Shown: piece by piece, positions 49,652 to 60,506 of the stretch | How the letters are laid out: the number at the start of each line of letters is the position of its first letter | Position numbering within the stretch: the stretch's first letter is position 1 | Source: Ferrimicrobium sp. | GTDB taxonomy: Bacteria; Actinomycetota; Acidimicrobiia; Acidimicrobiales; Acidimicrobiaceae | Direction: 5' to 3' | NCBI GenBank assembly: GCA_022690815.1 | Contig: JALCZJ010000010.1 | Location: 1 to 64,000 of the forward strand | Length of the DNA stretch: 64,000 bases | Program-made: the position numbers and the translations under genes | The notes under the pieces: model-generated | Databases searched by the model: none | Told to the model about the DNA's origin: nothing | The model's input: only the letters and a program-made list of their open reading frames with translations

Positions 49652-50034
49652 GCCTGGCCGATGCGGGCAAAAAGCGCATCGAGTTCGGTTTGCGGGACCT
49701 CTCGAACCGCTCCACACTCCTGGCAATAGAGGTGATAGTGAGAGTTGTCGGCGAGATGATAGATTGCCTTTCCGTGACCCAAGTGGATGTGGACGATCAC
49801 ACCAGAGCTCTGGAGCGTATCCAGGGTTCGATACACGGTAGCCAGATGGACGGAGGGGTCCTGGGCCTGCACAGCGTTGGTGACCTCCTCGGCGGTCAGA
49901 TGACCCCCCGCCTGTACGAGCGCGGTTACGATGTGACGACGTGGGCTAGTGATGCGATGTCCCGTAGCCGCCAGTTGGGCTAGGACCTCGTCGATGCGCT
50001 TATTCTCGAGGGAGGTCAAGCCGGTATCCAACAC
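49531..50034 (-). CDS. Fur-family metal-responsive regulator
   Basis: The winged helix (HRITSPRRHIVTALVQAGGHLTAEEVTNAV, VHLATVYRTLDTLQSSGVI) is followed by the metal-binding dimer domain: HYHLYCQECGAVREV with a CxxC zinc site and a C-terminal GTCGRCIERRG second CxxC. The 167 residues include a ~17-residue tail. The start is uncertain: TTG 50034 lies inside the end of the response regulator gene, and TTG 50019 is another choice. It may respond to iron, zinc or peroxide. It follows the two-component genes in the same direction. Confidence 0.85.
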   Translation of the reverse strand: MLDTGLTSLENKRIDEVLAQLAATGHRITSPRRHIVTALVQAGGHLTAEEVTNAVQAQDPSVHLATVYRTLDTLQSSGVIVHIHLGHGKAIYHLADNSHYHLYCQECGAVREVPQTELDALFARIGQAYDFEPSLGHFAIIGTCGRCIERRGSKARSSGPTSPESIA

Positions 50035-50710
50035 CGCGGATGGTGGTCAAAACGGTGGGGCGGTTCGGGTCTGGTTCGATCTTGTTCCTGAGTCGCTTGA
50101 TGTGGACGTCGAGGGTCTTGGTGTCTCCGTAGTAGTCATGCCCCCATACTCGATCGACTAGGACGTCGCGGGTGAGCACCTTGCCGGGGTTGCGCAGGAA
50201 CAAGATGAGGAGCTCGAACTCCTTGGGAGGCAGCTTGATCTCGTCATCGCCGACGACAACCTGATGTCGGTCGATGTAGGCGGTAATGCCTTGGAACCGG
50301 AGTACCTCCTCGTCGGTGCGAGGGCGCTCAGAACTCTCCGTTGTGCGACGCAACAGGGCACGAATCCGGGCGATGAGTTCGGCCATCCGAAAGGGTTTGG
50401 TAACGTAGTCATCGGCCCCGAGCTCGAGTCCCAAGACGGTGTCGAGTTCGGTGGAGCGGGCGGTGACAATGATGATCGGAACCTTTGACTCCTTGCGGAT
50501 CTGGCGACACACGTCGAGGCCAGAGATCTTGGGCAACATGACGTCGAGCAAGATGCAGTCCGGTTGGGTCTCGTGGAACAGGTCGAGTGCGCGTTGTCCA
50601 TCGGTGGCGACGATGGGCTCAAAGCCCTCCCGGCTCAACCCGAGGGTCATGGCATCGACGAAGCTCTCCTCGTCTTCGGCGATGAGGATACGCTCTTTGT
50701 CCGTGGTCAT
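50000..50710 (-). CDS. OmpR/PhoB-type response regulator (RegX3-like)
   Basis: The receiver domain has an acidic pocket AEDEES, the phosphorylated Asp56 in CILLDVMLP, and the Thr and Lys in IIVTARSTE and DDYVTKPF. A PhoB-type DNA-binding domain occupies residues 130-230 (PPKEFELLILFLRNPGKVLTRDVLVDRVWG, DVHIKRLRNKIE, VLTTIRGVGYRLD). It overlaps the sensor kinase gene by four bases (ATGA). The close match to RegX3/PhoP suggests a phosphate-starvation role, but that is inferred from resemblance only. Confidence 0.92.
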   Translation of the reverse strand: MTTDKERILIAEDEESFVDAMTLGLSREGFEPIVATDGQRALDLFHETQPDCILLDVMLPKISGLDVCRQIRKESKVPIIIVTARSTELDTVLGLELGADDYVTKPFRMAELIARIRALLRRTTESSERPRTDEEVLRFQGITAYIDRHQVVVGDDEIKLPPKEFELLILFLRNPGKVLTRDVLVDRVWGHDYYGDTKTLDVHIKRLRNKIEPDPNRPTVLTTIRGVGYRLDLPRE

Positions 50711-51747
50711 GAGCTAACCCGTGGAAGCGAGATCGTAAAGGTCGTTCCGACTCCTTCGGTGGAGGTGACGTCGATGGTGCCCTGATGGTTCTCTATCACA
50801 TGTCTCACTATAGAGAGTCCGAGTCCCGTGCCACCCGTTGCTCGGGAGCGGTCGGCGTCAACGCGATAGAATCGTTCGAAGATGCGGGTCAGGTCCCGGG
50901 CTGGAATACCGATCCCGTGATCGGAGATGATGGCCTCGACCTTGGATTGGACAACCCTGATGGTGAGCTTAACCTCAGTCGATGGCTCAGAGTACTTGAT
51001 GGCGTTGTCGACGAGGTTCGAGATCGCCGAGCTCAGTTGCCAACGATCGCCACTGACGAGGGGTTGCTCGGCGCTGAACTCGACCACCAGGTCGATGCCG
51101 CAGGCCTCAGCACCCAGGCGATAACGGTCGACGCATTCGGAGGCGACCTCATTGAGGTTGACCTCGTGGATCTGGTGGAGTTCGGTCTCTTCGAGCTTGG
51201 AGAGGTCCAACAGATCGGTGACGAGGCGTGCCAACCGATCGCCCTCGTCGAGGATACGCCGTGACAGCCTCAGCACCGTGGCCGGGTCGCTCTCCTGGCT
51301 CAAGGCATCGGCGAGCAGCACAATACCTCCAACCGGGGTTTTGAGCTCGTGTGAGACGTTGGCAACGAAGTCACGTCGTACCTCCTCCAATCGCTTTCGT
51401 TCGGTGATGTTTTCGACGGTGATGATGAAGGGAGGGTGCGGATCGCTGCCAAGTGGGGTGGTGACCAGCTGAAAGTAGCTCTTTGGAGGTCCGAATACCT
51501 CGAGGGTTTGGGTCCGGTAGAGCTCAAGACGAGCGTCGTGTTTGAGTGCCGAAATGGCGCGTTCCAGGAGGATTCGTTCGGCAAACCCGCCGGTCGGAAT
51601 CTTGTCGGCGTAGTCTGAATAGACCGTTCGGTAGTCGGCGTCGACCAAGACCACACCGATGGAGAGGCTCGCGGCTGCTCGTTTCCATAGATCAACGATC
51701 TCGACGTATTCGCCCTCAGCATTTCCTACGGTTTGACGTTCCTCCAC
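50707..51747 (-). CDS. soluble SenX3-like sensor histidine kinase
   Basis: A PAS-like domain (residues ~15-115, LSIGVVLVDADYRTVYSD) is followed by the HisKA box RRDFVANVSHELKTPVGGIVLL with the phosphorylated His at 133. The ATPase boxes are NLVDNAIKYSEPS, ISDHGIGIPARDLTRIFERFY and GTGLGLSIVRHVIENHQG. SenX3 homologues usually begin with two membrane helices, but none is present here, so this kinase is cytosolic. GTG 51747 is chosen because TAGGAT lies six bases before it; a GTG one codon earlier is possible. Confidence 0.9.
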   Translation of the reverse strand: MEERQTVGNAEGEYVEIVDLWKRAAASLSIGVVLVDADYRTVYSDYADKIPTGGFAERILLERAISALKHDARLELYRTQTLEVFGPPKSYFQLVTTPLGSDPHPPFIITVENITERKRLEEVRRDFVANVSHELKTPVGGIVLLADALSQESDPATVLRLSRRILDEGDRLARLVTDLLDLSKLEETELHQIHEVNLNEVASECVDRYRLGAEACGIDLVVEFSAEQPLVSGDRWQLSSAISNLVDNAIKYSEPSTEVKLTIRVVQSKVEAIISDHGIGIPARDLTRIFERFYRVDADRSRATGGTGLGLSIVRHVIENHQGTIDVTSTEGVGTTFTISLPRVSS

Positions 51748-51753
51748 CACTTC

Positions 51754-51759: not shown

Positions 51760-51840
51760 GGTCGGACGTCGAGCTGACGACGTAGGTTGGTTGGCTAAAA
51801 AGGAATTTACTAGAATGACATGAAAAATATTGTAAAGAGA

Positions 51841-51849
51841 TGATATGCT
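51841..51849 (+). promoter_or_regulatory. extended -10 (TGA-TATGCT) of the secretion/flagellar gene run
   Basis: TG, one base, then TATGCT lies in a strikingly AT-rich stretch (51795-51855). It is followed by the ribosome-binding site GGAAGGAG at 51861 and the ATG at 51876. No standard -35 box is visible. Confidence 0.45.
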
Positions 51850-51875: not shown

Positions 51876-52163
51876 ATGGCATGGATGCTTGGAAACGTAA
51901 CGCTCACCCCCGATCCCTCGGCCCTACCTGGTGGATCGGTGATCCAACAGCTCGCCAATGGGATCGGGGGGTGGGCGCTGATTTTGGCCCTCATTGGTCT
52001 CATCATCGGCGCGGCGACCTGGGCGCTTGGTGCGCATAGCCAGAACTACCAACAGTCGTACTTTGGCCGCCGGGCCGTGCTCGCGGCAGGGGCAGCGGCC
52101 CTCATCATCGGTGCAGCCCCTGCCATCATCAACTTCTTCTTTCACCTTGGGCTTGGCGTGTGA
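51876..52163 (+). CDS. small two-helix membrane protein of a type IV secretion-like module (VirB2/TrbC-like)
   Basis: The 95-residue protein has two hydrophobic segments (WALILALIGLIIGAATWALG and RRAVLAAGAAALIIGAAPAIINFFF) separated by a short polar loop, the size and shape of type IV secretion pilin-like subunits. It is the first gene of a tight run: it overlaps the next gene by four bases and a VirB6/VirB4/VirD4-like series follows. The assignment is from position and topology, since sequence similarity cannot be judged by eye. Confidence 0.6.
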   Translation: MAWMLGNVTLTPDPSALPGGSVIQQLANGIGGWALILALIGLIIGAATWALGAHSQNYQQSYFGRRAVLAAGAAALIIGAAPAIINFFFHLGLGV

Positions 52164-53239
52164 GTCGAATGGTCGGATCGATCCTGGGCGGCCCCGTCGA
52201 CGGGATCGCCCATGCCATCATCACCTACCTGATCGACGCGCTCGCCGGTTTTGCCGGCCACCTCTTCACCGGGGCGCTCAGTTGGTTCTTGGGCGAGATC
52301 GTGTCGTTGCTCGGAGCCGCTGATCGGCTCGACATCTCGGCATCGGCGATGCTGGGTGTCTATCGGGACCAGGTCGAGTTGCTCAGCCTTGTGCTGCTCC
52401 CGGCGCTTCTGATCGGGGTGATCATGGCGTTGTGGCGCCAAAGCATCGGTGGTCTCATCGAGCTGGTGGCACGCGTCCCGGTGGCTGTTTGTGCCGTTGT
52501 GCTCGCTCCGACGCTGACCAGTGATTTGGCCAACGTCGTGGACGCACTGGCTCGTGCGCCGCTCGGCGACCTTGGGGAGTTGCCGCGGCTCGCGCTGTTA
52601 TTCTCGTGGGGGCGAGCCATCCCTGGGGTTGGCCCAATCGTGGCGGGTATCCTTGCTGGATTGGCCCTGATCGGTGCCGTAGCGCTCTTTCTCGAGCTGT
52701 TGATGCGTGACGCTGGGATCTATCTCACGCTAGCGCTGTTCCCGCTCGCGTCGCTTGGGATCGTGCTCTCGATCGGGCGTCACTGGTTTGCTAACGCCGT
52801 GCGATCGCTCTTTGGGTTGGTGATCGCCAAGCTGATCCTCGCGATCGGTGTGGGCCTTGGGGCATCGTTGCTGGTGGAGGCCACGAGTGCGTCGGCACCA
52901 TCAAGGCTCTTCTCGTTGGCGTTGTCGGGGGTGGCACTGCTGTTGGTCGTCTGTTTCGCGCCGATCGCGATCTTGCGCTCGGTCGCCTTCTCCGAGGTCG
53001 TGGCCATGGAGGCGTTCTCGAGTGCGCGCTCGATGGCGATGGCGCGCCTTGGCGGGTTAGCTGATCAGGGGTACATGGCCCAAATGGTGCTCGCGGCTCC
53101 CTGGGCAAAGGAGCGAGCATCGACGCCCCCACAGTACCAGGGGCATCCGGTGCCCACTGCGATCGCCGAACTCGCCAAGCGGGACCCCTGGGTCGATGAG
53201 TTTCTCAACGGTTACAAGCGCAAAGGAGGAGGGAGTTGA
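52160..53239 (+). CDS. polytopic membrane protein, VirB6/TrbL-like
   Basis: The 359-residue protein has about seven to eight membrane helices (for example LLSLVLLPALLIGVIMALW, GILAGLALIGAVALFLELLM, LFSLALSGVALLLVVCFAPI) and a basic cytoplasmic tail. This matches the central channel subunit of actinobacterial conjugation systems. The GTG start overlaps the previous gene, and the next gene overlaps its end by four bases. It would form the inner-membrane pore of the system. Confidence 0.68.
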   Translation: MSRMVGSILGGPVDGIAHAIITYLIDALAGFAGHLFTGALSWFLGEIVSLLGAADRLDISASAMLGVYRDQVELLSLVLLPALLIGVIMALWRQSIGGLIELVARVPVAVCAVVLAPTLTSDLANVVDALARAPLGDLGELPRLALLFSWGRAIPGVGPIVAGILAGLALIGAVALFLELLMRDAGIYLTLALFPLASLGIVLSIGRHWFANAVRSLFGLVIAKLILAIGVGLGASLLVEATSASAPSRLFSLALSGVALLLVVCFAPIAILRSVAFSEVVAMEAFSSARSMAMARLGGLADQGYMAQMVLAAPWAKERASTPPQYQGHPVPTAIAELAKRDPWVDEFLNGYKRKGGGS

Positions 53240-54489
53240 CACCACACCACACTGGTGAGGACCGAAGTGAGCTGGTCTACTTTGGGACGCCAGCCTCGGG
53301 CACGCGGATGCTGGGCCTCTCCATCGCCACCGTGGCAAAGATCGCCTCGGTGGTGTTGGGAGCGATGGCCGTTATCGGCCTTGCCAGCGGGGTTGCGCGC
53401 CTCGTGATTGGGATCGTGCTGCTTGTAGCGCTGCTCGCGTCACTCTGGGCGACGATGGTAGTACATGTGCACCCACTCGCGTGGGTCAAGATGTGGCTTA
53501 GCTCCCGATTGGCTCGGCGATCGCGGGGTGTGGTCTTAGAGGGGCAGCTCCTGATGAGCCGGGGTACGCGTCAGTTGGTCGGTGGACTCTATGTCCTGGG
53601 GGAGACGCCTACCTTGTCGCTGCGCGCGCAACGAGATGAGGCGAGCGCATGGTCCGAGCTCTTGAATGAGGCGTCCAATCGATTGATCAGCCATGGGGAA
53701 GTGGTCGTGCGTAGCGCTATTTTGCCCCAAACGCTCGTTGAGGACCTCAGGAGCTGTTCGGCAGCCTATCGTGCGCTCGCACTTGGAAGCTACCAGATCG
53801 CCACCACGATGTTGGTGGTGGCTCCCCCCGGAGCGCCGAGGGCGCGACGGGTCGCGATGGCGCGAGCGATCACAGGCTTGGCAGCGCTTGGGCACTCCGA
53901 TCGTCTCACCCTCGTGGCGCCCGAGGTGCCGAGCCAGCTTATCGACGATGCCTGTGGCAATCTGAGCGCGGCCTTCTCGACCGATGGCACCACGATGGAT
54001 GAGCGTGTTGACATGCTCATCGGTGCCGAGTTCGCGGCATCGATGCATGTGGTGACCGGTTGGCCCGGCCGTAGTATCGATCCACGGATGCTGCTGGCGC
54101 TCTTTGGGCCGGGACCTCCGAGCCGGGTGGTCTCGATCATCATCAGGCCGATCGAAACTGCTCGTGCCCAGCGACACGTGGCTCGGCATCGAACGGAGAT
54201 GGTGGCCGACCGTCGGCTTCGCCGCGAGCGTGGGTATCTGGATCGAGCCCGAGACGACTATCGGGAGGCGACGGCCCAGACGCAAGAGGAGGATCTCTTG
54301 GCTGGTTATCGGCTCTGTCGTTATCAGCTCATCGTGGCACTGTTGGCGCCGAGTCCCAGTCAACTGGTGGCGAGCCGTACCGCGCTCGAAACGCTGGCCT
54401 CCAGCGCTCAGTTGCGGCTCAAAGTTGGCCTTGGCGAGCAACGCGCACTTTTCGAGCGGGCGTTGCTTGGAGTGAATGGATGGAGCTGA
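53236..54489 (+). CDS. SCO6880/PrgI-like type IV secretion protein
   Basis: The N-terminus has two close membrane helices (residues ~30-75), followed by a large soluble part with repeated Arg-rich stretches (RARRVAMARAITGLAAL, RRLRRERGYLDRARDDY). The combination of a VirB3-like membrane start and a VirB4 N-terminal-like soluble domain, directly ahead of the ATPase gene, matches the SCO6880-type proteins of actinobacterial conjugation clusters. No ATP-binding motif is present. The TTG start at 53236 is placed behind GGAGGAGGGAG. Confidence 0.6.
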   Translation: MTPHHTGEDRSELVYFGTPASGTRMLGLSIATVAKIASVVLGAMAVIGLASGVARLVIGIVLLVALLASLWATMVVHVHPLAWVKMWLSSRLARRSRGVVLEGQLLMSRGTRQLVGGLYVLGETPTLSLRAQRDEASAWSELLNEASNRLISHGEVVVRSAILPQTLVEDLRSCSAAYRALALGSYQIATTMLVVAPPGAPRARRVAMARAITGLAALGHSDRLTLVAPEVPSQLIDDACGNLSAAFSTDGTTMDERVDMLIGAEFAASMHVVTGWPGRSIDPRMLLALFGPGPPSRVVSIIIRPIETARAQRHVARHRTEMVADRRLRRERGYLDRARDDYREATAQTQEEDLLAGYRLCRYQLIVALLAPSPSQLVASRTALETLASSAQLRLKVGLGEQRALFERALLGVNGWS

Positions 54490-55634
54490 GCTATCAGGAT
54501 ACCACGCGAACGCTGGGTTGGTTGCCGCTGCTGGCGTCGAGTCCGCTTCCGCCGACGCGCGTTCGCCCGGTGGGCCCCTCTCAGCTCGGTGGGGTGCTGT
54601 GTTTCGATCCGTTTGAGCTCTATCGTGTCGGTTATCTCACCAGCCCCAACCTGTTGGTTTTGGGTGAGATCGGAAGGGGCAAGAGCGCCTTTGTGAAGAC
54701 CCTGTTGGTGCGTGAGCCATCGGCAACCTCATCGATACTGATCCTTGACCCTAAGGGGGAGTACCAGTCGGCCGCCGAGGTGCTCGGAGCTCATCGGTTG
54801 ACCCTGGCCGAAGGGACGGGACTCGACCCGTTTGCCGGCGTCGACGGCTCCAGGCGTATCCTTGGTGGGGTTATGGTGAGCCTGTTTCGGGTGCTCTATG
54901 ATCGTTCGCCGTTGCCGCTCGAATATCGTCTCCTTCACGAGCTCGTCGACGCCTTGCTTGACGCACCAGCTTCCATCACCCTTGGCCGCCTCGTCGAGCT
55001 CGTCGAGGTCCATCGATCAGGTGCACACGTGGACCCGGAGAGCATCCGGCTTCGTCGCGAACTCCACGCTCAGCTCATGCGTCTCATCGACGGCGACCTC
55101 GCAGGGATCTTTGGTGTAACTGGTGCAGGGGTCGCCCTCGAGCGTCGGGTCGTCGTCGATCTACGATCGCTCGGGGATCGCCGACTCACCGGTTTTGCGA
55201 TCAGCTGTCTCCTGAGGGCTCGCATCGCCCAGTTCGCCCGGTCCGAGGTCGGATCCGGCTTTGTGGTCATCGACGAGGCCTGGTCGGTGCTTCAACACAG
55301 CGACTCGGTGCGCGAGATGCGTGAGTTGTTCAAACTGGCACGAAGCTATGGAGCCTCGGTGATCGCGGTGACCCACCGTCTTTCTGATCTCGATGCCGAG
55401 TCTGCCGAGTTGGTCAAGGATGTCGAGACGAGAGTCATCTTTCGCCAGCCGAGGGAGGAGCTCGACCACATCGCCACGATGCTAGGGCTCCCCAGAGCGC
55501 TCACCGAGTGTATCGCGACCCTGGGTCGTGGAGAGGCGCTCTGGTCGATCGGCACGCATCAGTTCCTGGTGACCCACCGCCTCATCGACGGCGAGCATGA
55601 ACTCGTCGACACCGATCGTGCAATGCGAGCCTGA
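54480..55634 (+). CDS. VirB4-like type IV secretion ATPase
   Basis: A secretion ATPase of 384 residues. After the domain entry GGVLCFDPFELYRVGYLTSPN comes Walker A GEIGRGKSAFVKTLL, then ILDPKGEY as in VirB4/TraU-type proteins, Walker B FVVIDEAWSVLQ, and a final motif ASVIAVTHRLSDL. It lacks the N-terminal half of full VirB4 proteins, which here seems to be supplied by the preceding gene product. It overlaps both neighbours and would power export or pilus assembly. Confidence 0.82.
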   Translation: MELSYQDTTRTLGWLPLLASSPLPPTRVRPVGPSQLGGVLCFDPFELYRVGYLTSPNLLVLGEIGRGKSAFVKTLLVREPSATSSILILDPKGEYQSAAEVLGAHRLTLAEGTGLDPFAGVDGSRRILGGVMVSLFRVLYDRSPLPLEYRLLHELVDALLDAPASITLGRLVELVEVHRSGAHVDPESIRLRRELHAQLMRLIDGDLAGIFGVTGAGVALERRVVVDLRSLGDRRLTGFAISCLLRARIAQFARSEVGSGFVVIDEAWSVLQHSDSVREMRELFKLARSYGASVIAVTHRLSDLDAESAELVKDVETRVIFRQPREELDHIATMLGLPRALTECIATLGRGEALWSIGTHQFLVTHRLIDGEHELVDTDRAMRA

Positions 55635-56877
55635 GGTGGAGATTTTCGGTCTCATCGTCATCGCGGCGGTCCTCGTTACCCTCGGGCGATTCGAGCGCGC
55701 GGGTGCGAATCACCCGCGTGGACCTAACGCCCGGCCTCAACGAATCCGGACCGAGCCAAAGCTTCGGTTGCGCGTTGGCAGCCTGCAGCGGGTGCGGGGC
55801 CCACGCTTGCAGGTTCGCCTCTCCGAGAGGCGTCAGGTCAGCATCGATGATGAGCACTCGCTCTTGGTGGTCGGACCAACTCGCAGCGGCAAGACCACGC
55901 GGGTCGTGCTCCCGAACTTGTGCTCATTTCCAGGGTCGTTGGTGGCCACCTCGGTCAAGACTGATCTCCTCACCACGTCAGTGCTTGAGGCTCGCAAGCA
56001 ACGAGGACGGGTGGTCATCATCGGCGATCGGGCACTCGCTACGCATCACTGGGATCTCGTCTGTGAGGCTGTTAACGAGCGAGCGGCACTGGCGATGGCA
56101 CATGCGCTCGTCCTAGCCCAACCGGGCTTCGCCTTGACGAGTGGGGATACTCAATTCTGGTACCAACTCGCGGAGCCGATCGTCGCCGCGCTCTTGCGGT
56201 CGGCGGCGCTCACCGGCGCTGGGATGCTCGCGGGAATCGATGACCCAGGCGAACTCTATCGAAGCCTCGTCGCCCATGGCGAACAGCGGTTGGCCAATGG
56301 GGTGCTGGCTGCCTGTGGACTCGAGGAGCGCCAGCGTGACTCAGTGCTCCTGACGGCGCGCGGGTTGGTCAACCCGTTGGTCAACGTTGAGACAACTCTG
56401 CCACAGGTTCGCGTGTCCGAGCTCATCGATGGTCCACCGAGTGCAACCTTCCTAATAGCGAGTACCGCCGACCAGGAGCTTTTTTCGCTGCTGTTCGCCG
56501 TACTCTTGTCACGGATCGTTGCTGTTGCCCTTGAGCGGCGTCGTATGGAGCCGCTCCTTGTCTGCCTCGACGAGTTGGCGAACCTCGCCCCCATCCCCAA
56601 TCTCGATCGGCTGGCCGCGGTTGGGGTGGGACAGGGTGTGCGACTGATCTCGATTGTCCAGGATCTTTCCCAGCTCGAGCACCGCTATGGGCGAGGTGCC
56701 AACTCGATCATCAACAACCATGCCAGCAAGCTCTTTCTCAGCTCAACGGCAGATCCCATCACCCGTGCCTACCTGCGCGATATCGCACCCGAGTCACTCG
56801 GGTCTCGTCAACCGCTGCTCATGGAGGGGTCGAGTTCAGTGAGCCGACTTTGGGTTCGCGGGCAAACGAGAACTTAG
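55597..56877 (+). CDS. VirD4/TraG-like coupling protein
   Basis: Walker A is LLVVGPTRSGKTTRVVLPNL and Walker B is LLVCLDELANLAPIPNLDRL. The region ending ISIVQDLSQLEHRYG, with NSIINNHASKLFLSSTAD after it, is the TraG/TraM-recognition type of coupling ATPase. One hydrophobic stretch (EIFGLIVIAAVLVTLGRF) at the start may anchor it. The start may be ATG 55597, inside the upstream gene, or GTG 55636 just behind its stop. Coupling proteins bring DNA or protein substrates to the channel; no relaxase gene is in the window. Confidence 0.82.
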   Translation: MNSSTPIVQCEPEVEIFGLIVIAAVLVTLGRFERAGANHPRGPNARPQRIRTEPKLRLRVGSLQRVRGPRLQVRLSERRQVSIDDEHSLLVVGPTRSGKTTRVVLPNLCSFPGSLVATSVKTDLLTTSVLEARKQRGRVVIIGDRALATHHWDLVCEAVNERAALAMAHALVLAQPGFALTSGDTQFWYQLAEPIVAALLRSAALTGAGMLAGIDDPGELYRSLVAHGEQRLANGVLAACGLEERQRDSVLLTARGLVNPLVNVETTLPQVRVSELIDGPPSATFLIASTADQELFSLLFAVLLSRIVAVALERRRMEPLLVCLDELANLAPIPNLDRLAAVGVGQGVRLISIVQDLSQLEHRYGRGANSIINNHASKLFLSSTADPITRAYLRDIAPESLGSRQPLLMEGSSSVSRLWVRGQTRT

Positions 56878-56907
56878 GTTGATCGATGCCGTGCCGATGG
56901 AACCACC

Positions 56908-57276
56908 ATGGATGATCATGTAGCCAATGTGAGCGCTATCGAAGAGCTTCTCGATCAGCTCGATCATGAGTTGAGCGCGATGAGTGATTTGATGGAGCAC
57001 AACGCCGATGAGGAGCTGGCCAATCGTGCACTAGAGCTTCAAGCCACCGTTGAACGCTTAGTCGGAGAGGTTGAGACGTTGCAGCCAGAGCCAGGGACCT
57101 ATCGGAGCCGTTATCAACAGCTCGTGACAAAGGCGAATGTGGTGATGGTCGGCTGCTTTTGGCGGTCGATGGTCGTCGCCAATCTGATGCGCGATCTAGG
57201 GCTCGATATCGGTCTCTATCAAAGTGATGGTGATGTCGAGCTGCTCAAGCCCGAGTCAGTGAGTCACCGAGCATGA
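56908..57276 (+). CDS. helical protein ahead of flgK, FlgN-like chaperone candidate
   Basis: The 122-residue, acidic, helical protein has heptad-like stretches (IEELLDQLDHELSAMSDLM, ELQATVERLVGEVETL). It lies 30 bp after the secretion module and overlaps flgK by four bases (ATGA). Size, helicity and place suit FlgN, the chaperone that keeps FlgK and FlgL soluble, but the sequence itself gives no firm match. The Cys/Trp-bearing segment VGCFWRSMVVANLM is unusual for a chaperone. Confidence 0.5.
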   Translation: MDDHVANVSAIEELLDQLDHELSAMSDLMEHNADEELANRALELQATVERLVGEVETLQPEPGTYRSRYQQLVTKANVVMVGCFWRSMVVANLMRDLGLDIGLYQSDGDVELLKPESVSHRA

Positions 57277-58688
57277 GTGGATCCCTCTCGATCGCCCTCT
57301 CCGGGCTCGACGCCGCCCAGACGGGCCTTGACACCGTCAGCGAGAACATCTCGAATGCCAACACCCCAGGCTATCTCAAGGAGACAGCCTCGCTTGTCAA
57401 TCAGCAGATACCAGGGGATGCGATCGGCAACGGCGTGAGTGTCGCTGGAGTCCTCCAATCTACCAATAGCTTCAATCGCCAACTCGAGCTCTCGGCCAAT
57501 GGATCCCAAAGCTATGCGAACCAACTGCAATCGCTCTTGACCAGTGCCCAGGCTTCGTTCAACGAGCCGAGCTCGAGCGGCATCGCTGAACAGCTCAACA
57601 CGATGTACAACGACTTCTCGGCGTTGGCCGATTCGCCAACCCAACCTGCGAGTTATGCCCAGGTCGTGGCGTCGGCCCAAAACGTCACCACCGCCATCAA
57701 CCAGGCGGCCCAGAACCTCACCGACGTCTATAACCAGGCGTCGAGCGCTGCCGGCACGCTGGTCACTACCATCAACTCACAGCTCAGCGAGGTCGCCTCC
57801 ATCAACACCCAGCTGGCCTCGACGTCGTTGACACCAGGGGCATCCAACACCCTTGTTGATCAACAAAATGCGGTGATCGACCAACTGGCGAGCGAGTTAG
57901 GCGTTACCTCGATCCCTGGCAACGCCGGACAGACGACCCTGTTGATAGGGGGTGTGGCCCTTGTCCAAGGGGGGCAGGCATCGAGCATCGAGTTCACCCC
58001 GTCCACCAACCCAATCTCAACGTCTAGCTCCGCAGGGACCTTCACCCCCGCGCAGATCACCCTCACGTCGTCAGGAACCCAAGTCCCGGTCACCAGCGGC
58101 ACGCTCGGTGCGACCTTGACGGTGCTGAATTCGAAGTTGCCGACCTACGGGGGTTATCTCAACTCGTTGGCGACCAACCTGGCTAGCAAGGTGAACACAC
58201 AACTTGCAACAGGATACAACGCGAATAATAAAAGTGGTCCACCGCTGTTCGTCTCAGTGACCAACTCAAATCAGCCTACGGTCCCTTCCACTCCCATCGC
58301 AGTGAACGCCGCCACCATCACGGTCAACCAAGCCGTCGTCAGTGACCCCTCAGGAGAGATTGCGGCCTCATCCGCCGATCCTTACGCTCCCGGTGATGGC
58401 TCCAATGCCCAGGCGATAGCTAACCAACAGACCAGCACGACTGGTGTGATCGCCGACTGGGCGACATCGGTTGCCAACGTTGGTCTCGACGTCCAGAACG
58501 CGAGTGCGCTGGCGACGAATGCCACCAACACCTACAACCAGGCCTATAGTGCCGAGCAGTCGGTATCGGGCGTCTCGGTGAACTCACAACTCGTGAATAT
58601 GGTCAACTATCAGCAGATGTATCAGGCTTCAGCCAAGGTGATCTCGACGGTTGCCGCAACCCTACAGTCGCTGATCCAAGATGTGTAA
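57273..58688 (+). CDS. flgK: flagellar hook-associated protein FlgK
   Basis: FlgK forms the first junction ring between hook and filament. The N-terminus MSGSLSIALSGLDAAQTGLD, then TVSENISNANTPGYLKE, is the flagellar rod/hook signature. The C-terminus VNSQLVNMVNYQQMYQASAKVIS, ending in ATLQSLIQDV, is the paired helix. The middle is Ser/Thr/Ala-rich and variable. The 471 residues are normal. It is secreted through the flagellar export apparatus without a signal peptide. It overlaps its candidate chaperone gene, and flgL follows 18 bp later. Confidence 0.92.
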   Translation: MSGSLSIALSGLDAAQTGLDTVSENISNANTPGYLKETASLVNQQIPGDAIGNGVSVAGVLQSTNSFNRQLELSANGSQSYANQLQSLLTSAQASFNEPSSSGIAEQLNTMYNDFSALADSPTQPASYAQVVASAQNVTTAINQAAQNLTDVYNQASSAAGTLVTTINSQLSEVASINTQLASTSLTPGASNTLVDQQNAVIDQLASELGVTSIPGNAGQTTLLIGGVALVQGGQASSIEFTPSTNPISTSSSAGTFTPAQITLTSSGTQVPVTSGTLGATLTVLNSKLPTYGGYLNSLATNLASKVNTQLATGYNANNKSGPPLFVSVTNSNQPTVPSTPIAVNAATITVNQAVVSDPSGEIAASSADPYAPGDGSNAQAIANQQTSTTGVIADWATSVANVGLDVQNASALATNATNTYNQAYSAEQSVSGVSVNSQLVNMVNYQQMYQASAKVISTVAATLQSLIQDV

Positions 58689-58706
58689 CCAAAGGGAGGT
58701 CCGTTA

Positions 58707-59621
58707 ATGTCGATGATCCCATCACAGATGAGCTTGAGCGCGCTCATGTCGAGCTCTCTCGATCAGTATCAGACGCAGTTGTCCCAGATGGAACAGACGC
58801 TCTCTACCGGCAACAACATCAACCAGCCCTCAGACAACCCCACCGGCGTGGCAAACCTCATCAACGTAAATGCATCGTTGTCGGCCTACAACCAGTACCA
58901 AAGCAATATCACTGCCGGTCAAACGGTCGCCTCGCTGGCCAATGCCTCGATGACCCAAGCGGTGAATATCGTTCAACAGATCTCAAGTGTTCTCATCCAA
59001 GCCGGTAACCCTGGGGTGACACCTTCAAACGCCAAAGGAATAGCGAGCCAAGTCCAGGGCCTAGAGACGTCCCTGCTCGGGGTTGCCAACACCACCTATC
59101 TTGGCCAGGCGATCTTCGCCGGCACCGCGGGCAAGACAGTTGCCTACACCGAGAGCGGCGGAGTGGTCACCTATCAAGGTAACACCACTGCACCGAGCGT
59201 TGCTGCCGCTCCTGGTGTCAACCTTGCGACCAGTATCGCGAATCCTTTTGATGCGCCATCATCAAATGGCACAGGCACAGGCACAGGCACAGACATCTTC
59301 GCCGCCATCAACAGTGCGATTTCGGACCTGAACAACGGTACCATCGGCGCGAACTTTCAAAGCGCACTCTCGGGTGTCCAAACGGCCCTGAGTGCCCTCG
59401 AGGACAAGGCTGCCCAGGCTGGGGTAAACGACGCACAGTTTCAGGTGATGAGCCAACAGGTCACCGGTGCGGTCACCCAGGCACAGAGCGAGGTTGGAAC
59501 GATCCAAAACGCCAACGTTGCCCAACTCGCCACCCAATACCAACAAGAGCTTAACAACTATCAGGTGGCGCTCTATGCGACCTCACAGTTGAATCAGCCG
59601 ACACTTGCTCACTATCTTTAG
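58707..59621 (+). CDS. flgL: flagellar hook-associated protein FlgL
   Basis: FlgL is the second junction protein. Flagellin-like ends are present: QMSLSALMSSSLDQYQTQLSQ with MEQTLSTGNNINQPSDNPTG at the start, and VGTIQNANVAQLATQYQQEL near the end. The 304 residues are usual. A Gly-Thr repeat (SSNGTGTGTGTD) in the middle comes from four ggcaca hexamers, which can gain or lose copies without shifting the frame. AAAGGGAGG precedes the ATG. It follows flgK in one operon. Confidence 0.9.
   Translation: MSMIPSQMSLSALMSSSLDQYQTQLSQMEQTLSTGNNINQPSDNPTGVANLINVNASLSAYNQYQSNITAGQTVASLANASMTQAVNIVQQISSVLIQAGNPGVTPSNAKGIASQVQGLETSLLGVANTTYLGQAIFAGTAGKTVAYTESGGVVTYQGNTTAPSVAAAPGVNLATSIANPFDAPSSNGTGTGTGTDIFAAINSAISDLNNGTIGANFQSALSGVQTALSALEDKAAQAGVNDAQFQVMSQQVTGAVTQAQSEVGTIQNANVAQLATQYQQELNNYQVALYATSQLNQPTLAHYL
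59268..59291. repeat. four ggcaca hexamers inside flgL
   Basis: The hexamer repeats lie in the variable middle part and encode alternating Gly and Thr. Slippage would change the length by two residues per unit without a frameshift. Confidence 0.85.
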
Positions 59622-59741
59622 TGCGCCGTAGCAGACTTGGCCAGGCCTCGCTTGGTGCTGGCTTCACAGTTTGCGTTCGTGTGGTTGCTACCAGTCCGTA
59701 ATCGTCCAGTTTCATCGTCAGTCCAGTTTTGAGGAGGACCA

Positions 59742-60209
59742 ATGAGTCAAGTAACCGAGGATACAACCCGTACCCAGCGGGTTCTGAGTCTGCCGCTGAG
59801 CTTTCCCATCGGCTTGCCAGGGTTTGAGGGGCACCACAGCTTCGTGCTCGGAGCGCTCGGGCCGGCCTATGGCCCCTACCTCGGTCTGCGTTCCACACAG
59901 GAGGACGGGCCGAGCTTTGTGATCGTGCAGCCTAGCGAGCTCGGCATTGAGATGGCCGTCGATATCGATGACTTTCACCAGTCGCTGCTTAGCATCAAGG
60001 ATGCCAGCGAGGTACTCGTCATGCTCATCGCAACCCTCGATGATGTCGGCGGCAACCCTACGGTGAACACGCAAGCACCGCTGGTGATCAACATCACCAA
60101 CTGGAGGTGCGCTCAGATCCTCCAAGACAATCAGGCCTACAGCATGCACCAAGAAGTCGATATCCCACTTCGCGACAACGCTAGGATACCGGCCCAAGGC
60201 GAGGCTTGA
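59742..60209 (+). CDS. fliW: flagellar assembly factor FliW
   Basis: FliW binds CsrA and flagellin and so links flagellin translation to assembly. The family segments are SFPIGLPGFEGHHSFVLG near the N-terminus, PSFVIVQPSELGIEM in the middle and the late VNTQAPLVINITNWRCAQIL, which is followed by a short tail. It has 155 residues with GAGGAGG upstream of its ATG. Its usual partner gene csrA lies just behind it but on the other strand, so the two are convergent here rather than co-transcribed. Confidence 0.9.
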   Translation: MSQVTEDTTRTQRVLSLPLSFPIGLPGFEGHHSFVLGALGPAYGPYLGLRSTQEDGPSFVIVQPSELGIEMAVDIDDFHQSLLSIKDASEVLVMLIATLDDVGGNPTVNTQAPLVINITNWRCAQILQDNQAYSMHQEVDIPLRDNARIPAQGEA

Positions 60210-60251: not shown

Positions 60252-60506
60252 TCAATCCTTATTGTTGGGCGACCGATGATCCTCTTGTGAGGTGGGATCA
60301 GTCGTTGGAGCCAGCTTTTCAGCTGACTGGGCGGCGCTACGGTTTGACGCCTGGAGCGCATCGAAGATCTCTTGCCGATGGACATCGACGTTTCGAGGAG
60401 CTTCGATGCCAACGCGAACCTGGTCGCGGTGAACATCTAAGATCGTGATCACGATATCGTTGCCGATCACGATACTCTGACTGGCCTTTCTGGTTAGAAC
60501 CAGCAC
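60252..60506 (-). CDS. csrA: carbon storage regulator CsrA
   Basis: CsrA is a translational repressor that binds GGA motifs near ribosome-binding sites, classically of flagellin mRNA. MLVLTRKASQSIVIGNDIVI, then VRVGIEAPRNVDVHRQEIFDAL, is the full core. The tail of ~25 residues (84 in total) is longer than usual and polar. The GTG start has AAGGAGG four bases upstream, itself a potential CsrA site, with a CGCC-TTCG-GGCG hairpin just before it. It converges on fliW. Confidence 0.93.
   Translation of the reverse strand: MLVLTRKASQSIVIGNDIVITILDVHRDQVRVGIEAPRNVDVHRQEIFDALQASNRSAAQSAEKLAPTTDPTSQEDHRSPNNKD

Follow-up and report, generated by a model that had tools for sequence, protein, structure and literature searches.

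How does a set of conjugation-type secretion genes that includes a coupling ATPase come to stand directly in front of flagellar genes, with no relaxase beside it? The question is raised by a stretch of 64,000 nucleotides from Ferrimicrobium sp. (positions 1 to 64,000 of contig JALCZJ010000010.1, assembly GCA_022690815.1), referred to here as the window, in which five closely packed genes, A to E, are followed in the same direction by flgK, flgL and fliW. A preliminary description, made from the sequence alone, saw in A–E a relaxase-less module resembling a type IV secretion system (T4SS), and offered two readings: a secretion machine co-expressed with motility, or an old element captured beside the flagellar operon. 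The answer that we reach from comparisons across the class is that A–E, on balance probably, are the channel of a conjugation-type machine that is chromosomal and vertically inherited in the order Acidimicrobiales, and whose other parts are scattered. A fuller version is put forward more tentatively, as a possibility falling somewhat short of an even chance: that across much of the order a core-genome T4SS, together with a second coupling ATPase and a MobF relaxase lacking its helicase, all lying apart on the chromosome and partly linked by a common operator, has replaced ComEC and provides host-owned exchange of chromosomal DNA.

Families, genomes and loci are labelled f, G and L (f1 is the family of the window genome; f9, f16, f19 and f47 are other families). 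A class-wide search of 395 genomes with a profile of the pilin-like protein A found matches in 65. Close pilins (E ≤7.3e-27) were present in 53 of the 395, all of this order and from 12 families, the next match lying at 4e-23 and others being weaker; with the addition of f9, whose locus (L036) was located via VirD4, at least 13 families have the module. The module-negative set comprises 29 genomes of the order in which neither a close pilin nor a close module was found; G026, one of them, has a distant pilin match (1e-10). Ten pilin-positive genomes (G401, G419, G266, G361, G175, G105, G162, G240, G420 and G411) and four f1 genomes (G006, G020, G021 and G023) stood outside the relaxase and ComEC searches considered next. 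Intermediate pilin matches, at 1e-20, 9e-15 and 4e-15, were seen in three f47 genomes of 1.6–1.9 Mb from another order of the same class (G048, G117 and G199).

Is there a relaxase to go with the coupling ATPase? Profile searches for the relaxase families PF03432 and PF03389 found none in the window's own genome, and by themselves would have supported the relaxase-less view; it was overturned by a search for TrwC (PF08751), which matched on two other contigs. One of these proteins (L148, G000:C3, about 76732–78855) is a helicase-less relaxase of 707 amino acids, with an intact HUH motif and without Walker A, that passes the cut-offs for both Pfam TrwC and NCBIfam MobF (MobF 121.6 against 100) and aligns with PDB chains of TrwC and TraI across the HUH motif. 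The other (L149, G000:C4:51987-53054) is a mobile-looking relaxase of 1228 amino acids with Walker A. The idea that a coupling protein was retained in the absence of any relaxase is not supported: the genome carries two TrwC relaxases outside the cluster. The broader statement that relaxase, integrase and lytic enzyme are all missing holds among the ten window genes scanned (for integrases, no genome-wide search was made) and fails genome-wide on account of the same two relaxases. Across the order, TrwC was present in all 53 genomes that have the module and in 11 of the 29 that lack it (Fisher p 6e-11). As an aside, no T4SS gene was labelled in the 15 kb covered around the mobile-type L149, and it might borrow the T4SS of the window.

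The relaxases that accompany the module have features of their own. For every module-positive genome outside f16 (n = 49), the TrwC locus not of the long mobile kind was taken as conserved; this division into 49 conserved and nine mobile-type loci was drawn after seeing the loci, L200 and L204 fall into neither group, and further TrwC matches of module-positive genomes (for example G002:C44, G003:C22, G004:C11, G005:C106 and G009:C41) lie outside the comparison. Twenty loci make up the module-negative comparison, with G073:C25 and G028:C209 outside it. Within 4 kb of the relaxase, PafBC was found at 37 and a second VirD4 at 22 of the conserved loci, versus none of either at the mobile-type or module-negative loci; conversely, a Walker-A-like string was present in only one conserved relaxase (G013), versus all nine mobile-type and 16 of the 20 module-negative ones. 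In an alignment of the relaxase domain (80 of 82 rows kept; G093 and G355 dropped out), the HUH triad and the DPH histidine were present in all 47 conserved rows and the tyrosine in all 35 that reach it, 12 being gapped there; the DPH histidine was found in only one of nine mobile-type and two of 20 control rows. In f16 the arrangement is tighter, a TrwC-like gene standing divergent from the pilin gene, in the place of the histidine kinase (HK) and response regulator (RR) genes, at all four loci. Just 5' of the relaxase start in L148 and loci of the same genus, most of six genomes have a block resembling GGTGG-N5-CCACC, a candidate origin of transfer (oriT) or operator.

A further coupling ATPase is present in the window genome as a stand-alone VirD4-like gene (L044, G000:C42:1229-2452), set among genes for a Mur ligase, a D-Ala-D-Ala ligase and an ion channel, where the ten genes scanned include no further T4SS gene. 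Its product scores up to 264 bits against the relaxase-adjacent VirD4-like proteins of other families, versus 136 at best against E proteins.

Module and relaxase go together with the absence of ComEC, the usual channel for DNA uptake. ComEC (PF03772) was found in none of the 53 module-positive genomes, which span 12 families, versus all 29 module-negative genomes, from 15 families (Fisher 8e-23); as a control, the PF03772 profile gave a match in ten of 14 well-known genomes. With ComEC lacking from the module-positive genomes, DNA exchange may now be the task of this machine in place of ComEC-mediated uptake.

Both module and relaxase are under purifying selection. In four same-genus pairs, the ratio of nonsynonymous to synonymous substitution rates (dN/dS) was 0.02–0.18 for A–E and 0.16–0.21 for the relaxase, although in the distant pairs synonymous sites approach saturation, and one value could not be computed. 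The pilin is the most conserved component, at 55–83% identity between f1 genera versus 17–41% for B–E; surface proteins are not usually so conserved. When identity matrices were compared between proteins, those of D, E and B correlated with the matrices of HK and RR, that of D with that of E, and the relaxase matrix with each of D, E, HK and RR (Spearman 0.53–0.75, with none of 500 permutations as high); the pilin matrix correlated more loosely with that of the relaxase (0.35; 0 of 500) and not at all with that of HK (-0.01; 260 of 500). These correlations fit vertical inheritance; joint function is not shown by them alone.

The genes and sites of the locus are as follows, in the coordinates of the window:

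50000..50710, minus strand: response regulator (RR) of the OmpR/PhoB class, divergent from the module; MtrA, YycF and PhoB models match below cut-off
50707..51750, minus strand: histidine kinase (HK) of the PhoR/PnpS class; matches below equivalog cut-offs
51820..51849, plus strand: putative operator/promoter, in which TGAAA, TGTAA and TGATA follow one another with a 10-bp period into TATGCT (-10-like)
51876..52163, plus strand: A, pilin-like subunit (DUF6112/VirB2-TrbC class), from profile matches and conservation
52160..53239, plus strand: B, VirB6/TrbL-like membrane protein, from a weak profile match
53236..54489, plus strand: C, SCO6880 family, probably VirB3-like helices and the N-terminal part of VirB4, from a profile and a low-confidence model
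54480..55634, plus strand: D, C-terminal ATPase part of VirB4, from profile matches
55597..56877, plus strand: E, VirD4-type coupling ATPase (type 1), from profile matches
56908..57276, plus strand: small FlgN-like gene directly 5' of flgK (neighbour), labelled from position and size
57273..58688, plus strand: flgK (neighbour, outside the module), clear profile match
58707..59621, plus strand: flgL (neighbour), clear profile match
59742..60209, plus strand: fliW (neighbour), clear profile match
60252-60506, minus strand: csrA, convergent to fliW, on the strand opposite to the flagellar run

All of the open reading frames in the run from A to fliW proved to be open, in one direction and at the positions first given for them. 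The two ATPases are the most securely named: D matches AAA_10 and the TraG P-loop above cut-offs, and E matches T4SS-DNA_transf (PF02534) at 83 bits and TraG-D_C at 57.5 bits, and so the cluster has the VirB4 ATPase (D) and the VirD4 coupling ATPase (E) of a monoderm conjugative-type T4SS. A matches DUF6112 above cut-off and TrbC/VirB2 below it (20.2 bits); its profile gave one chance-level match, and nothing meaningful, against PDB. B scores below cut-off with both TrbL_4 (16.5 bits) and SCO6881 (24 bits). Structure prediction, which the preliminary description had suggested for all five proteins, was of partial help. For B the model was too poor to use (predicted local distance difference test score, pLDDT, 39.7); for C, of which only the C-terminal part matches SCO6880_fam above cut-off, a low-confidence model (mean pLDDT 49.7) found nine PDB matches at E ≤0.001, all of them to R388 VirB4 or to entries containing it. 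C and D are therefore probably the two parts of a divided VirB4, preceded by VirB3-like helices, to the extent that so weak a model can suggest it. The composition of the module varies in detail: the C position of G009 (L038, 4418-7303) has a frame of 961 amino acids with only a short, weak match to C, and two f16 loci (L131 and L132) have, as judged by eye, a gene for a secreted-looking, discoidin-like protein of about 700 amino acids separating C from D, and one resembling a Mur ligase 3' of D.

How widely is this organization shared? Comparison of gene order, proposed in the preliminary description, was carried out, and the arrangement (RR and HK divergent from A-B-C-D-E-flgN-flgK-flgL-fliW-csrA-cheA) is kept in the window's genus, where contigs reach, and in several other f1 genera. 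HK is divergent from the pilin gene in 48 loci, with one intervening gene in three (L105, L114 and L127), and there is no HK beside the pilin in the four f16 loci. In L105 and L127 a gene that by eye looks like SLT or NlpC/P60 lies between HK and A. Outside f16, the neighbours of the module, judged by eye in representatives, are housekeeping genes: serS, ctaA, ctaB, clpS, fur, an ABC-2 transporter and a ROK-type kinase. The earlier opinion that this is not a normal conjugative element is borne out, and what emerges instead is a conserved module.

The repeats in front of A offer a possible link between the scattered parts. Within 300 bp 5' of the pilin gene, TGAAA-N5-TGAAA with up to one mismatch occurs at 25 of 55 loci, versus 1–8 of 55 for other periods from 7 to 14, and of the 878 genes scored, the 26 with such an operator are 24 pilin genes, one B just behind a pilin gene and one cheA. 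In the relaxase loci (622,886 bases) the exact motif occurs four times against 1.1 expected from shuffles, a count not striking in itself; three of the four (L160, L175 and L185) precede the relaxase. The exact form ATGAAA-N5-TGAAA was searched for in 12 whole genomes. There was no site in G264, G097, G275 and G308; the sole genomic site was just 5' of the relaxase in G372 and G032 and 5' of the pilin in G417 and G287; and four other genomes had 2–9 sites, those of G347, G403 and G312 including the pilin. The reversed control pattern had sites in two of the 12 (G415 and G312). The putative operator links pilin and relaxase loci in some families only. Sites also fall in coding or unclear places (e.g. 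L238, L240, L242, L243 and L247), and a wider regulon is not claimed. Nor is regulation by phosphate, as the scores of HK and RR against phosphate models all fall below cut-off; a Pho-box-like GTTCA 5' of A was not consistent across loci.

Putting these elements together, we suggest that a regulator recognizing the 10-bp-spaced TGAAA repeats would activate the promoter of the T4SS genes and, in certain families, that of the relaxase gene too. The relaxase would nick chromosomal DNA, and one or both of the VirD4 ATPases would deliver the single strand to a minimal T4SS of the monoderm kind, made up of a VirB2-like pilin, a VirB6-like protein and a split VirB4, through which DNA might pass between cells and then be recombined. 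Joint action of relaxase and T4SS, DNA as the substrate, and the direction and trigger of transfer are all things that we infer. The simplest account of the history would be that an ancestral conjugative system became a chromosomal property in part of the order: in f16 the relaxase lies beside the pilin gene, and elsewhere a helicase-less relaxase is placed at pafBC or another housekeeping site. PafBC is a regulator of the DNA-damage response in mycobacteria, and its presence would fit repair-linked exchange. Exchange of that kind has been described for the archaeal Ced system, in the part of the source drawn on here (PMC9905601).

Several observations weigh against this picture. The association with ComEC absence has a Fisher value that overstates the case if the module-positive genomes are a single clade, with one gain and one loss, and the co-occurrence with TrwC could likewise be explained by one gain in such a clade. 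In the unconstrained relaxase tree the conserved set falls into several groups (six changes) and not into one clade; in favour of one clade, forcing the 47 conserved relaxases together improved the log-likelihood (lnL) by 16.4, with a P value of 0.71 in the approximately unbiased (AU) test, and with the f16 relaxases included the improvement was 17.0 and the P value 0.77 (the AU tests were run without L212 and L227). A single origin is allowed by these sequences, not proved. The HUH triad is not distinctive, being kept in most mobile-type and control rows as well, and two small f19 genomes, G093 (L167) and G355 (L199), have stops inside the TrwC match and may have decaying relaxases. No oriT was identified; neither VirB8 nor a VirB1-like hydrolase was found among the ten window genes scanned; and the identity of B is weak. 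As to the operator, only 25 of the 55 pilin loci have it, it was found (with up to one mismatch) in just four of 44 relaxase upstream regions of 400 bp, and the site at L185, in an AT-rich genome, seems to overlap the upstream gene and may be there by chance. In the window genome itself the operator is one of 11 one-mismatch sites, against nine for the control, and is uninformative.

What else might such a machine do? Of the other possibilities, it is unlikely that the T4SS imports DNA from neighbouring cells as archaeal Ced does, with the relaxase here readying DNA in the donor or acting on strands as they enter. There are points in favour: ComEC is absent from all 53 module-positive genomes, and the presence of PafBC next to 37 of the 49 conserved relaxases hints at DNA damage, given its mycobacterial role. 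To our knowledge, however, T4SSs that have both a relaxase and VirD4 are exporters. Ced is itself a chromosomal importer with VirB2, VirB4 and VirB6 homologues; the components named in the relevant part of that account include neither VirD4 nor relaxase, both retained here, and archaea are said there to have no apparent relaxase homologues (PMC9905601). A T4SS that secretes proteins or delivers effectors on contact, the relaxase then being an unrelated core enzyme, perhaps one of DNA repair placed beside pafBC, seems to us slightly less probable again. It would accommodate the separation of the relaxase from A–E in 49 of 53 genomes, and a second VirD4 that may serve the relaxase separately; it sits badly with the f16 loci, where the relaxase adjoins A, with the operator common to both loci in a few genomes, and with the lack of any recurrent extra gene inside the module outside f16 (the neighbours being partly identified). 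Release of single-stranded DNA into the surroundings, in the style of the gonococcal genetic island (GGI), is improbable: relaxase, VirD4 and T4SS are indeed all chromosomal here, yet recipients would need an uptake channel where ComEC is absent, and the pilin, the most conserved part here, is dispensable in the GGI according to the portion of the review consulted (PMC12857230). It is more doubtful still that A–E are the remnant or resident of a mobile element, whether plasmid or integrative and conjugative element. The same genus has further T4SS clusters that may be mobile (L057–L059), and there are distant pilins elsewhere in the class; against this, the relaxases lie on other contigs, the same housekeeping neighbourhood recurs across families in place of patchy, varying sites, the genes are under purifying selection, no integrase was seen among the window genes scanned and no plasmid in PLSDB had a match to the pilin.

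Comparison with described systems brings out what would be new in a conjugation-type machine belonging to the host. Many proteins of the SCO6880 and SCO6881 types belong to conjugative elements, and bacterial conjugation machines are regarded as a property of mobile elements. In 2023, domestication of such a machine for DNA transfer was unreported outside archaea, to the knowledge of the authors of the relevant passage (Beltran et al., PMC9905601). The Ced and Ted systems of hyperthermophilic archaea are chromosomal, domesticated VirB2/VirB4/VirB6 machines thought to move cellular DNA; lineage-fixed chromosomal counterparts of these three proteins are found here too, the identities of VirB6 and VirB2 being weak, but in a bacterium and with VirD4 and a MobF relaxase, whereas the description of Ced and Ted, in the part of the paper concerned, gives no relaxase homologue (PMC9905601). 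The GGI resembles our system in having a chromosomal T4SS with a relaxase that acts on chromosomal DNA; it differs, as far as the sections on it go, in being an island with an F-like system at one locus, unlike the separate loci, many families, minimal T4SS and ComEC-less hosts seen here (PMC12857230). In Streptomyces, the cmd and SCO6871–6884 clusters have membrane and ATPase components of the same kind, and C passes the SCO6880 cut-off; their role is in differentiation or unknown, and a dispersed relaxase is not mentioned in the part of that report used here (PMC2782261). Mycobacterial distributive conjugal transfer and TraB transfer in Streptomyces are likewise actinobacterial means of chromosomal DNA exchange, but they use ESX (type VII) or FtsK-like TraB machinery in place of a T4SS and MobF relaxase, on the evidence of the pages cited (PMC12857230). 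A survey of openly licensed papers found no account of such a system in the Acidimicrobiales. If our interpretation is true, there is a host-owned bacterial mating system across many families, with its relaxase kept and ComEC gone, and with it a chance to ask how a lineage trades natural transformation for conjugation.

There remains the flagellar neighbourhood with which we began. The step of 30 bp from E to the FlgN-like gene was confirmed, without any terminator-like site between them, and is beyond chance: where an f1 locus includes E as well as flgK, the next called gene follows E at a distance of 1–46 bp in 14 cases of 15 (in the 15th, L034, no gene is called for 525 bp after E). The FlgN-like product itself scores only weakly, and below cut-off, against unrelated families, some of them coiled-coil. 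Module and downstream flagellar genes are probably co-transcribed, to judge from this spacing. Might the module be a flagellar accessory, serving export at the hook–filament junction or motility in general? The operon-like run from E through flgN to flgK in 14 of 15 f1 loci would suit that reading, which we nevertheless reject as scarcely credible: flgK, flgL and fliW had no match in any of the 36 loci (3.5–19.9 kb) outside f1 and f16, and the module genes are retained in three f1 genomes (G015, G022 and G011) and one of f9 (G032) that have a match to neither FlhA nor FliW. The module and fliW are on separate contigs in the flagellated f1 genome G017, and flgK-flgL-fliW-csrA lie about 6 kb upstream of the pilin gene in G039 (f16). 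The flagellar genes are a family-specific neighbour, not part of the machine. Of the two readings offered at the outset, co-expression with motility can apply at most to f1, and perhaps to one f16 genome, there being no flagellar neighbours at the 36 loci compared elsewhere; an old element captured beside the flagellar operon is the better of the two, although the spread of the module extends beyond that neighbourhood. In most of the f1 loci long enough to include csrA, this gene is convergent to fliW, as it is in the window.

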